Source of the DNA: Streptomyces sp. PCS3-D2
GTDB lineage: Bacteria; Actinomycetota; Actinomycetes; Streptomycetales; Streptomycetaceae
Reading direction: 5' to 3'
DNA length: 64,000 nt
NCBI RefSeq assembly: GCF_000612545.2
Contig: NZ_CP097800.1
Coordinates: 6,168,501 to 6,232,500, forward strand
A program made the position numbers and the translations under genes. The notes beneath the pieces were generated by a model. It worked only from the letters and a program-made list of their open reading frames with translations, had not been told where the DNA came from and did no database searches. Below, one piece after another: positions 19,777-55,832 of this stretch (position 1 is its first letter; every line of letters starts with the position of its first letter).

Positions 19777-19782
19777 GTACAT

Positions 19783-20075
19783 CGACCGGCCGGATGCCAT
19801 GGTGTCCGGCCCACAAGTGGAGGCTCCGTTCTCCCACCTGACCGCCTTCCGGGGCGGCGGGTCACCGGTCAGGCGGCATCCATCGTTCCGTACGGACGAT
19901 GGAAAGCCGCCCGAGTCTGCGCCCCGCGTGCTGCATGCGGCGGTGCTCCGGTCGTTTTGGAGCCCCTGCCTGTGCCCGGCGGGGCTTTTTCATTCTCCCG
20001 CTGTGGTCGGTCTGACGGAAATACACGTCAGCGGCTGTCTGCCAGGCAGTCGTGTGGTGCTACCGAGGAGGATCC
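19783..20075 (+). ncRNA. Structured infC leader RNA with internal intrinsic terminator
   Basis: The leader holds successive hairpins: GGCCGGA / TCCGGCC (19788-19811), CCTGACCG / CGGTCAGG (about 19838-19874), and CCATCGT / ACGATGG (about 19879-19901). It then has a true intrinsic terminator, AGCCCC-13-GGGGCT followed by five T (19961-19990). infC begins about 86 bases later. This is a transcription-attenuation arrangement; in other bacteria this operon is feedback-controlled by L20 or by attenuation. The sensing element here is not identified. No ORF longer than the window noise explains the region. Confidence 0.6.
19961..19990 (+). terminator. Intrinsic terminator (attenuator) in the infC leader
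   Basis: The stem AGCCCC / GGGGCT is extended by GCC / GGC past one bulged base and followed by TTTTT and a T-rich stretch. It is one of the few U-tract terminators in the window, and it lies inside a transcript rather than at its end. Confidence 0.7.
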
Positions 20076-52518: not shown

Positions 52519-52761
52519 GCAGCGAGGGTATTACGGGCCGGAGAGCCCCGGGCGCGCGCCCCTTCTCCCGCGGCGGTCCCCACGTGGCCGCCGCTCCCGG
52601 GCGCCGTCCCCCGCGTCGTCGGCCGGACCGTGGTCTTGACCACAGAGGTGCCCGCCGCCCGACCCCGGCAGGTGGTCGGGGGGGCGGCCCGGGACGCCGT
52701 GTCGGCGCAGGTCGGCGGCATGATCGGCCGGGTGGGGCGGGTGGCTGCGTTCGGCCGATGG

Positions 52762-52800
52762 TGTCCGGTATGCGGCCGAAAAATGTCCGGTATCCGGACA
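52762..52800 (+). promoter_or_regulatory. Palindromic operator upstream of metNIQ
   Basis: TGTCCGG-TAT-CCGGACA (52784-52800) is a perfect dyad, and the half-site TGTCCGGTAT also occurs at 52762-52771, 22 bases earlier. A -35-like TTGATC (52804-52809) follows directly, so a bound repressor would block transcription. Confidence 0.6.
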
Positions 52801-52840
52801 GTTTTGATCGGTGAGGGGTCAGGTCTGCTTTACTGGGCCC

Positions 52841-52927
52841 ATGACCACGACGAGCAGCCGCACCCTTGCGACCGAGGCGACCATGACGCCCGGTGCTCGC
52901 TGTATGTGTCGAATGCGCGCCTTCTGA
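52841..52927 (+). CDS. Leader peptide of the methionine importer operon
   Basis: A 28-residue reading frame beginning MTTTSSRTLATEA and ending MTPGARCMCRMRAF then TGA, with three internal Met and two Cys codons clustered near its end. It lies downstream of a -35-like TTGATC and a T-rich -10 area ending about six bases before the ATG, so it is probably the first, leaderless cistron. Codon-specific stalling at Cys/Met codons is the usual logic of such attenuators. It is too short to be confident of alone; position and composition support it. Confidence 0.6.
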   Translation: MTTTSSRTLATEATMTPGARCMCRMRAF

Positions 52928-53130
52928 GGGCCCCTTCCTGAGCCTCGCGCCCCGAAGCGAGACCGGCAGCGCCAGTGCGTCCCCACCGGATGGACCACCC
53001 GGCCTGCTCATGCCCCGCGCACACGTCGACGCCATCGATTTCTGACGGTTCGTCCCGTATCGCGTCCCCAGATGTTTGCCCCGTGCCCGGCAGCCCGCTG
53101 CGCCGTGCACTCGACAGCGACGGAATTCCT

Positions 53131-54189
53131 GTGATCACCACATCGGGCCTCACGAAGGTCTACCAGTCCCGTGGCCGCGAGGTCACCGCCCTGGACGGCG
53201 TCGACCTCCACGTCCGCGAGGGCGAGGTATACGGAGTCATCGGCCAGAGCGGCGCGGGCAAGTCCTCCCTGATCCGCTGCGTGAACCTGCTGGAGCGCCC
53301 CACCACCGGCACCGTGCACGTCGACGGGGTCGACCTCACGGCGCTCGCCGGCCGCGGCCGACGGGCCGGCAAGGAACTCCGCGAGGCCCGCAGCCGCATC
53401 GGCATGGTCTTCCAGCACTTCAACCTGCTGTCCTCGCGCACCGTCCAGGCCAACATCGAGCTGCCCCTGGAGATCCTCGGCGTCTCCGGCCGCGAGCGCT
53501 CCCGCAAGGCCCTCGAACTCCTCGACCTGGTCGGCCTCGGCGATAAGGCCAAGGCCTACCCCGCCCAGCTCTCCGGCGGCCAGAAGCAGCGCGTCGGCAT
53601 CGCCCGCGCCCTGGCCGGCGACCCCAAGGTGCTGCTCTCCGACGAGGCCACCAGCGCCCTTGATCCCGAGACCACCCGCTCCGTCCTGAAGCTGCTGCGC
53701 GACCTCAACCAGCAGCTCGGCCTCACCGTACTGCTCATCACGCACGAGATGGACGTCGTCAAGACCGTCTGCGACTCGGCCGCGCTGATGAAGAAGGGCC
53801 GCATCGTCGAGTCCGGCACGGTCGCCGAGCTGCTCGCCACCCCCGGCTCCGAGCTCGCCGACGAGCTCTTCCCGGTCACCGGCACGGCCACCGGCCCCGA
53901 CCGCACGGTCGTGGACGTCACCTTCCACGGCGAGGCCGCCGCCCAGCCGGTCATCTCGCAGCTCTCGCGTACGTACAACATCGACATCTCGATCCTCGGC
54001 GCCGCGATGGACACCGTCGCCGGCCGGCTGATCGGCCGCATGCGCATCGAACTGCCCGGCCGCTACGAGGACAACGTCGTGCCCGTCGGCTTCCTGCGCG
54101 AGCAGGGCCTCCAGGTCGACGTCGTCGACGACATCGACATCGACATCGACAACGAACTGGCCGAACTGGTCAAGGACGGTGCCCAGTGA
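53131..54189 (+). CDS. metN: Methionine ABC transporter ATP-binding protein
   Basis: A 352-residue ATPase of the D/L-methionine importer. Walker A is GQSGAGKSS with Lys44, the signature is LSGGQKQR, and Walker B runs LLSDEATSALD. The C-terminal NIL domain (about 265-340, VDVTFHGEAAAQPVISQLSR) senses methionine and inhibits transport when the pool is high. GTG 53131 begins the ATPase; the upstream frame to 52975 is the leader region. A short acidic run (DIDIDIDNE) near the end is unusual. It overlaps metI by four bases. Confidence 0.94.
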   Translation: MITTSGLTKVYQSRGREVTALDGVDLHVREGEVYGVIGQSGAGKSSLIRCVNLLERPTTGTVHVDGVDLTALAGRGRRAGKELREARSRIGMVFQHFNLLSSRTVQANIELPLEILGVSGRERSRKALELLDLVGLGDKAKAYPAQLSGGQKQRVGIARALAGDPKVLLSDEATSALDPETTRSVLKLLRDLNQQLGLTVLLITHEMDVVKTVCDSAALMKKGRIVESGTVAELLATPGSELADELFPVTGTATGPDRTVVDVTFHGEAAAQPVISQLSRTYNIDISILGAAMDTVAGRLIGRMRIELPGRYEDNVVPVGFLREQGLQVDVVDDIDIDIDNELAELVKDGAQ

Positions 54190-54854
54190 CCTGGTCCGAG
54201 ATGCAGCCCCTGCTCACCCAGGGCACCTACGACACCCTCTACATGGTCCTGTGGTCCACCCTGGTCACCGTGGTCGGCGGACTGCCCATCGGCATCCTGC
54301 TCGTCCTGACCGACAAGGGCGGCCTGCTGCAGAACCAGCCGCTCAACAAGGTCCTCGGCGTGATCGTGAACATCGGCCGCTCGCTGCCGTTCATCATCCT
54401 GCTGATCTTCCTGATCCCGGTCACCACCGCCGTCGTCGGCACCTTCATCGGCCCCACCGCCATGATCGTCCCGCTCGCCGTCGGTGCGATCCCCTTCTTC
54501 GCCCGGCTCGTCGAGACCTCCGTCCGCGAGGTGGACCACGGCCTCGTCGAAGCCGTCGAGTCCATGGGCGGCGGCATCCCCACCCTGGTCGGCAAGGTGC
54601 TCCTGCCGCAGGCCCTGCCCTCCCTGGTCGCCGGCGTCACCACCACCGTCATCACCCTCGTCGGCTACTCCGCCATGGCGGGCGCCGTCGGCGGTGAAGG
54701 ACTCGGCTCCAAGGCCATCACGTACGGCTTCCAACGCTTCGAGACCGGCTTCATGGTCGCCACGGTCGTGGTCCTCGTCGCCCTCGTCACCGTGGTCCAG
54801 CTGATCGGCGACGGCGCCGTCCGCCTCCTGGCCCGCCGCGGCCGGACGGCCTGA
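54186..54854 (+). CDS. metI: Methionine ABC transporter permease
   Basis: A 222-residue permease with five membrane helices and the MetI-type loop EAVESMGGGIPTLVGKVLLPQALPSLVAG, which contacts MetN. The start is GTG 54186, overlapping the metN stop (GTGA). Confidence 0.93.
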   Translation: MTWSEMQPLLTQGTYDTLYMVLWSTLVTVVGGLPIGILLVLTDKGGLLQNQPLNKVLGVIVNIGRSLPFIILLIFLIPVTTAVVGTFIGPTAMIVPLAVGAIPFFARLVETSVREVDHGLVEAVESMGGGIPTLVGKVLLPQALPSLVAGVTTTVITLVGYSAMAGAVGGEGLGSKAITYGFQRFETGFMVATVVVLVALVTVVQLIGDGAVRLLARRGRTA

Positions 54855-54968
54855 CCGCCACACCACGGGCCGCGACCCCCACTGATTTCCCCACAGAGCC
54901 CGCACTTGTCGTGCTTGGGCCACCACCAGCAAGTCCTCGGTACTTGTTCAGCAAGAAAGGCACTCTTC

Positions 54969-55832
54969 GTGCGTAAGAACACCAAGCTCACCGCCCTCGC
55001 CGCCACCGCCACCGCGCTGACCCTCGGCCTCACCGCCTGCGGCAGCTCCTCGGACCCGTCCTCCGCCAAGGCCGACGGCGGCACGGCGGACGAGAGCAAG
55101 CCGCTTGTCATCGCGGCCTCCCCCAGCCCCCACGCCGACATCCTCGACTTCGTCAAGGACAAGCTCGCGGCGAAGGAAGGCCTCACGCTGGAGGTCAAGG
55201 AGTTCACCGACTACGTCCTGCCCAACACCGCCACCGAGCAGGGCCAGGTCGACGGCAACTACTTCCAGCACAAGCCGTACCTCGACGACTTCAACAAGAA
55301 GAACGGCACCCACGTCGTCCCCGTCGTGAACGTGCACCTGGAACCCCTCGGCCTCTACTCCAAGAAGGTCAAGGCGCTCTCCGACATCAAGGCCGGCCAG
55401 ACCATCGCCGTGCCCAACGACACCACCAACGAAGGGCGCGCGCTCCAGCTGCTGGCCGCGAACAACCTGATCACCCTCAAGGAGGGGGTCGGCACCAGCG
55501 CCAAGCTGTCCGACATCACCGACAAGAAGGGCCTGGAGTTCAAGGAGCTGGAGGCCGCCACGGTCCCGCGCGCCCTGGGCGACGTCGATGCCGCGGTCAT
55601 CAACGGCAACTACGCCCTCGAGGCCGACCTGGCGCCCGCCAAGGACGCACTCGTCCTGGAGAAGGCCGAGGGCAACCCGTACGCCAACTTCCTCGCGGTC
55701 AAGGACGGCAACCAGGGCGACCCGCGGATCCAGAAGCTCGCCAAGCTCCTGAACTCCGACGACGTCAAGAAGTTCATCGAGGAGAAGTACCAGGGCTCGG
55801 TCGTCCCGGCCTTCGGCACCCCCGCCTCCTGA
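54969..55832 (+). CDS. metQ: Methionine-binding lipoprotein
   Basis: A 287-residue NlpA-family binding protein. The signal ends in the lipobox LTACGSS, with lipidated Cys24. The body shows HADILDFVKDKLAAKEGLTL, NTATEQGQVDGNYFQHKPYL and VPNDTTNEGRALQLL, all MetQ marks. It captures methionine outside and delivers it to MetNI. It lies 114 bases after metI, in the same operon or with its own start. The start is GTG 54969. Confidence 0.94.
   Translation: MRKNTKLTALAATATALTLGLTACGSSSDPSSAKADGGTADESKPLVIAASPSPHADILDFVKDKLAAKEGLTLEVKEFTDYVLPNTATEQGQVDGNYFQHKPYLDDFNKKNGTHVVPVVNVHLEPLGLYSKKVKALSDIKAGQTIAVPNDTTNEGRALQLLAANNLITLKEGVGTSAKLSDITDKKGLEFKELEAATVPRALGDVDAAVINGNYALEADLAPAKDALVLEKAEGNPYANFLAVKDGNQGDPRIQKLAKLLNSDDVKKFIEEKYQGSVVPAFGTPAS

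Follow-up and report, generated by a model that had tools for sequence, protein, structure and literature searches.

Results

The metNIQ Locus and Its Leader Reading Frame

The window, by which we mean the whole 64,000-nucleotide stretch of Streptomyces DNA that was analyzed, contains a metNIQ-type operon preceded by a short open reading frame, here called the leader. The features of the locus are collected in Table 1. The first gene of the operon, metN, starts with a GTG codon at 53131, leaving 203 nt between the leader and the gene. The start of the metQ-like gene was chosen by eye; the open reading frame list places it at 54906. All matches of the three products to the MetN, MetI, and MetQ models of NCBIfam fell under the curated cut-offs. 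For the metI product, for example, MetI was the top match, scoring 202 bits where the cut-off is 212. The label "methionine" is therefore based on family resemblance together with the published annotation as a methionine importer of SCO1557-1559 of S. coelicolor, the presumed counterparts of these genes (PMC4991794).

The leader runs from ATG to TGA in an open frame and encodes the peptide MTTTSSRTLATEATMTPGARCMCRMRAF, which ends in GARCMCRMRAF. An earlier note on this DNA had described a frame of 28 codons with two Cys and two Met codons close to the stop, and the sequence confirms this description: both pairs of codons lie within the last eight. As in an attenuator, the presumptive regulatory codons are found near the stop of the predicted leader frame and ahead of a cognate MetNIQ-like operon.

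Table 1. Features of the leader region and the metNIQ operon (window coordinates)
Feature	Position	Strand	Remarks
Palindrome TGTCCGGTATCCGGACA	52784..52800		Candidate operator 5' of the leader promoter
TTTACT	52829..52834	+	Candidate -10 hexamer; leaderless start would be at 52841
Leader ORF (metL-like)	52841..52927	+	28 codons plus stop
H1, 5' strand	52847..52855	+	Pairs with 52895-52903; A.C mismatch in the window (52850/52900)
Hairpin H2	52859..52870	+	CGCA-N4-TGCG
Hairpin H3	52871..52894	+	ACCG-A-GGCG-N7-CGCC-CGGT
H1, 3' strand	52895..52903	+	Codes for Ala-Arg-Cys (codons 19-21)
Met/Cys tail, MCRMRAF and stop	52904..52927	+	Outside the three-way junction
GGGCCC	52928..52933	+	Directly after the stop; possible partner of the downstream loop
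Hairpin H5	52944..52961	+	CTCGC-GCCCCGAA-GCGAG; conserved loop
Conserved block with GCACTCGACAGCGACGGAA	53101..53125	+	Just 5' of the metN start
metN	53131..54189	+	ABC ATPase with NIL domain; PF00005 (ABC_tran) 3.2e-34, PF09383 (NIL) 3.7e-19
metI	54186..54854	+	Permease; PF00528 (BPD_transp_1) 1.4e-18
metQ-like	54969..55832	+	NlpA lipoprotein; PF03180 (Lipoprotein_9) 2.8e-91

Conservation of the Leader in Streptomyces

A MetN match was found in 194 of 199 genomes of the genus. From the best 150 or so of these matches 100 metN-upstream regions were picked by the analyst, and because they were taken from the best-scoring MetN rows the set is biased toward closer relatives. The leader was present in all 101 regions (the window plus the 100) as judged by a peptide pattern, and a looser pattern likewise gave 101 of 101. 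Another 25 true leaders, all from Streptomyces and mostly divergent, came from a list of 37 genomes chosen by hand; MTGASSHHQAPETGTLSGARCPRRMCAR and MSTTHRSPAAAEVVPTPSARCCRCRMCDC are examples of strong divergence. The conservation upstream of metN in other Streptomyces for which the earlier note had proposed to look is thus present in all 101 regions and at 25 further loci, and the leader is not a chance reading frame.

Presence of the leader was also compared with that of MetN. In a set of 41 hand-picked genomes, 26 had a MetN match, and 25 of those 26 had a leader; none was detected in G007, a genome with a partial MetN. Eleven of the 15 genomes without MetN were scanned for the leader, the other four being misses of R1, an RNA model built from 74 distinct leaders. 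Of the 11, four gave no leader match at E ≤ 1, the best locus of another four proved on inspection to be no leader, and the remaining three had only uninspected matches, with E values of 0.32-0.85. At E ≤ 0.01, R1 matched 177 of the 197 genomes searched in the order, namely 176 of the 181 same-genus genomes and G339, from another genus (E 3.1e-4). The latter was rejected on inspection of its locus, which holds no leader, and the five same-genus genomes that were missed have no MetN match at E ≤ 1e-75. A class search of 296 genomes matched all 28 same-genus genomes listed; the 16 matches in other genera, which were uninspected (E ≤ 0.05, best 0.0026), are about the number expected by chance for 268 genomes. 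A pattern scan of named genomes returned at least 120 stretches, of which the 80 listed are all from Streptomyces. The leader adjoins metN at every locus checked, and searches of the own genome with the tail pattern, the H5 pattern, or the RNA model, whose next match had an E of 2.1, detected no second leader.

The Met/Cys Tail

In all 126 leaders an Arg-Met pair is followed by 2-3 codons and then the stop; in the window the corresponding CGA-ATG core lies at 52910-52915. The length of the leader differs from 87 nt in 29 of the 126, by 3 to 30 nt. Because the frame is read to its stop, lengths that are multiples of three arise partly by construction, and the independent evidence that the frame is preserved is the Arg-Met landmark, which stays in frame in the length variants. 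No frame is kept further downstream, where the remainders on division by three split 73, 26, and 21 for the distance from stop to H5 and 49, 39, and 32 for that from H5 to metN (120 regions each).

All 97 distinct leaders have one Met or more in the tail that follows codon 21, and 95 of them also have one Cys or more there. Codon 21 itself encodes Cys in 92 and Arg in 5, and the codon in third place ahead of the stop reads TGC or TGT in 70, CGC in 24 (including the window), and ATG in 3. Since the Cys codons drift to Arg whereas Arg-Met is universal, methionine is a better candidate than cysteine for the signal. Codon 21, moreover, is part of an RNA helix (below). Of the Met/Cys sensor with conserved terminal residues that the earlier note had envisaged, the frame-kept tail ahead of a methionine-type importer and its Arg-Met pair stand, whereas the part assigned to cysteine, which is not universal, is weakened.

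Start Region and Upstream DNA

The candidate -10 hexamer ends six bases 5' of the ATG, and conservation over 101 aligned regions is 90% or higher in every one of its columns. Its spacing from the ATG fits a leaderless start such as that published for the S. lividans homologue. A generic promoter scan of 52600-53200 gave no sigma-70 match.

Further upstream lies a palindrome. When the best site within the 110 nt upstream was taken from each of 126 regions, six or more of the seven arm positions matched in 69. The site starts 57-59 nt 5' of the ATG in 61 of those 69. The pattern TGTCCGNTANNCGGACA has two exact matches in the own genome, one of which is the palindrome upstream of the leader. The sole other exact match (L178:1501-1517) is situated ~70 bp before a gene for an amino acid permease of GABA-permease-like type. 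With one mismatch allowed there were 5 sites in the own genome, against 3 for the reversed control pattern. The palindrome may bind an additional regulator, perhaps one with a small regulon that includes the permease gene.

A Proposed Three-way RNA Junction within the Reading Frame

Codons 3-21 of the leader appear to overlap a conserved RNA three-way junction consisting of H1 (leader nt 7-15/55-63), H2 (19-22/27-30), and H3 (31-39/47-54, with A35 bulged). A first indication comes from third codon positions. At 58 loci (those of 67 with an 87-nt leader) the mean heterozygosity was 0.065 at nine conserved 4-fold sites of the leader and 0.313 at 152 comparable metN sites of the same loci, a roughly 5-fold difference, and none of 10,000 random draws of nine metN sites gave a value as low as that of the leader. 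The codons CTT, GGT, GCT, CGA, and TGT are retained in the leader, although they are uncommon in the four window genes from which codon usage was counted.

Covariation was assessed principally on alignment A2, which comprises the 81 distinct segments that remained of 87 once six carrying an extra codon had been set aside. In this alignment 94.8% of cells pair in the proposed junction. Cells with two-sided change numbered 26, a count that none of 500 shuffles reached (4.1 ± 1.9), and pairs with two-sided change numbered 7, compared with 3.1 ± 1.2 (1 of 500 as high); these counts are of sequences rather than of independent events. Structures slid along the alignment gave at most 17 two-sided cells, and the structure slid by -2 had 9 pairs with two-sided change but only 40.6% of its cells paired. 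Further pair types were not in excess (17, compared with 18.1 in shuffles). A codon alignment of 97 leaders gave 24 two-sided cells across 18 pairs against 2.9 ± 1.6, with 0 of 1000 shuffles as high. In A1, which contains the 74 distinct sequences among the 101 leaders from close relatives, the stems hardly vary and no covariation was found.

The covariation support is best for H3 and H2 and weaker for H1. Specifically, 98.5% of H3 cells are paired in A2, with changes from G-C to A-U in 7 and 2 of the 81 rows; in H2, C-G is replaced by U-A in 4 rows and A-U by C-G in 6. In H1, 92.2% of cells are paired and two-sided changes occur at 2 of its 9 pairs, the pair of nt 10 and 60 being unpaired in 21 of the 81 rows, including the window. 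Unaided RNAalifold returned H1-H3 on A1 and H3 only on A2, so that H1 and H2 depend on the proposed structure and the counts made on it. The leader is not unusually stable as a fold: 458 of 1000 synonymous recodings fold as low.

The most variable amino acids of the peptide map to the loops and the junction and the conserved ones to the stems, and the Cys codon of the conserved ARC (codon 21) sits within helix H1. Because third positions scarcely vary and compensatory changes exceed those in shuffles, the conservation of the peptide is in part conservation of RNA. The leader region had no match at gathering cut-offs to any Rfam family, SAM riboswitches and the Streptomyces-metH and -metK RNAs included, and relaxing the search to E ≤ 5 gave a single unrelated chance match (E 2.5). 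Elsewhere in the window, at 19781-19992, Rfam matches Scr1601 (RF02830), a Streptomyces RNA (E 1.9e-31).

A Conserved Element after the Stop Codon

Directly after the stop, 123 of 125 regions read GGGC or GGGT (L148 of the 126 was left out of these counts). The loop of H5, GCCCCGAA, is present in 121 of the 125, and loop plus GCG in 120. The stem pairs of H5, from inner to outer, are retained in 121, 115, 121, 116, and 109 of the 121, so the loop is better conserved than the stem. In the own genome the H5 pattern had one full match, H5 itself, and two with 2 mismatches.

If GGGC pairs with GCCC of the H5 loop, the three regions in which the fourth post-stop base is T would retain a G-U pair. 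The loop is missing in L097, L100, L109, and L167; the latter two are also the two regions that lack GGG, and both keep the leader. By hand arithmetic the chance of this joint loss is <0.001 assuming independence, an assumption that related genomes violate.

A long-range helix, H4, between TGTCGA..GTGCGC of the leader and GCGCACTCGACA before metN was noted from complementarity by eye and has been rejected for now. Changes in the leader (TGC/CGC, insertions) are not mirrored in the metN block, and leader-metN duplex energies are no better within a genome than across genomes.

Discussion

A Leader Probably Both Translated and Structured

Taken together, the comparison supports a genus-wide leader, putatively a cis-regulator of the methionine-type importer genes metNIQ, that is probably both translated and structured. 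The leader that the earlier note had read as a sensor peptide is indeed conserved; the RNA structure that overlaps it and the element after its stop had been missed. As a conserved leader whose coding sequence also appears to conceal a conserved folded RNA, it is probably a translation-linked control switch. Our preferred account, to which we give about an even chance, is of a translation-gated cis-regulator that senses methionine, perhaps also cysteine, and whose output is translational or Rho-dependent. We infer the sensing, stalling, and output as follows. Ribosomes would load at the 5' AUG of the leader and unwind the junction. A shortage of charged Met-tRNA, and perhaps of Cys-tRNA, would make them pause in the neighborhood of the CGA-AUG(-UGY) codons. 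Formation of the junction and of the GGGC/hairpin element after the stop would then depend on where the ribosome has paused or is terminating, with the outcome that metNIQ expression is raised under sulfur amino acid limitation.

No intrinsic terminator was seen after the leader in a scan of 52600-53200, in which the upstream palindrome alone scored, so control of metN translation or Rho-dependent termination is a more likely output than classical termination. Folding of 120 sequences under ribosome masks, with pseudoknots outside the model, predicted no switch between folds: H5 had means of 0.80 in the free state, 0.90 with the ribosome stalled at Met, and 0.89 with it at the stop, and H1-H3 stayed at or above 0.77 in all three. 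Pairing of the CGAG arms of H1 and H3 with CTCG of H5 was considered as a switch and found no support, the mean pairing between 5' arm and post-stop region being ≤0.09 in each state.

A more specific and more tentative form of the translation-gated account, which we consider doubtful, makes the 87-nt leaderless frame a dual-use element, at once the translated sensor and the three-way-junction RNA. The elongating ribosome would be what opens and closes the RNA, while translation termination would compete with a pseudoknot next to the stop, between GGGC and GCCC of the H5 loop, giving terminator-free, Met-responsive control of metNIQ.

Alternative Explanations

The alternative that survives best, though we consider it doubtful, is a classical ribosome-mediated transcription attenuator, in which starvation for Met or Cys stalls the ribosome, an antiterminator displaces the terminator, and metNIQ is transcribed. 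It is close to the published reading of metL and draws on that attribution (PMC8079986) as well as on the Met/Cys codons at the leader stop and the matching transporter downstream. However, the U-tract terminator that it needs is absent 3' of the leader within 52600-53200, the pseudoknot-free ribosome masks reveal no mutually exclusive fold, and only a single Met codon of the tail is universal.

The near-invariant third positions, the covariation in H2 and H3, and the near-invariant loop GCCCCGAA would also be explained if the leader were a structured RNA first, an element that binds a protein or ligand and whose codons, although translated, are not the sensor. Preservation of the reading frame in the length variants speaks against this, as does the lack of an Rfam match. 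With loops of variable sequence in H2 and H3, the junction moreover offers no obvious ligand pocket, and we regard the explanation as unlikely.

Arrest by the nascent peptide, with an ARC...RM(C/R)xx C terminus in the exit tunnel and a small-molecule effector stalling the ribosome at or near the stop, would account for an Arg-Met pair whose spacing from the stop is fixed to within one codon in 126 of 126 leaders. It is nevertheless improbable, given that 2 to 12 residues, variable in kind, separate residue 21 from Arg-Met and that the conservation of ARC is accounted for by helix H1. Finally, a conserved small protein working in trans would fit the genus-wide conservation of the peptide but is very improbable, since the variable residues are those of RNA loops and the conserved ones those of stems, third positions are conserved, and metN is adjacent at every locus checked.

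If the translation-gated account is true, sulfur amino acid import throughout Streptomyces would be under terminator-free control, and the leader would provide a compact model of leaderless translation and RNA folding combined within one short sequence. It also carries a caution: a leader peptide can look conserved when what is being kept is in fact an RNA. The Cys codon of ARC, for instance, has the appearance of a sensor codon but belongs to a helix. The conserved pieces of the leader offer exact targets for mutation.

Comparison with Known Systems

The leader belongs to the same family as metL (SLIV_29928) of S. lividans TK24, a leaderless leader peptide, MSTTSDRTPATEATTTPGARCMCRRMCAF, that occupies the same place upstream of metNIQ and was classed as an attenuator of that operon, its leaderless start being taken from RNA-seq (PMC8079986). 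Three of the leaders in our collection (L060, L070, and L079) encode a peptide identical to it. The same paper describes several hairpins 3' of metL and the want of a typical Rho-independent terminator. The central idea of the earlier note, put forward there as an extension of leader peptides to methionine import, was therefore already known, since PMC8079986 lists metL before metNIQ. Genus-wide conservation, the three-way junction, GGGCCC, and the H5 loop do not figure in the passages on metL in that paper, and we found no account of a structured RNA before Streptomyces metN in open-access full texts, supplementary files aside. As far as these searches show, the overlap with RNA, the post-stop element, and the universality of Arg-Met instead of Cys are new.

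RNA control of methionine genes in Streptomyces, of the kind that the leader may exert, is represented by the Streptomyces-metH and -metK RNAs and the SAM riboswitches named in PMC8079986, to none of which the metNIQ leader region has an Rfam match. The described motifs uORFC-8-2 (cysS) and uORFC-6-1 (PMC8632094) are also short reading frames over conserved RNA structure, and in one of them a stem contains Cys codons. Unlike the metNIQ leader, uORFC-8-2 has a U-run terminator at its end.

Leaders with Cys codons, which the earlier note supposed to precede other sulfur genes of Streptomyces, are described for Mycobacterium, Propionibacterium, and Bifidobacterium (PMC1262725, PMC9031893), and control of this kind is documented in the phylum by the leaderless, Cys-responsive short reading frames of mycobacteria (PMC9031893). 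The mycobacterial polycysteine frames (Canestrari et al. 2020, via PMC9031893 and PMC13236596) resemble the Streptomyces leader in being leaderless frames that carry codons for sulfur amino acids and precede a sulfur operon, and conserved terminator hairpins have also gone unseen before the mycobacterial cys operons (PMC1262725). The two differ in the arrangement of these codons. The Cys codons of the mycobacterial frames are contiguous, whereas those of the window, codons 21 and 23, have a Met between them, and the Streptomyces leaders combine separated Cys codons that drift to Arg with a universal Arg-Met pair and an RNA fold inside the reading frame.
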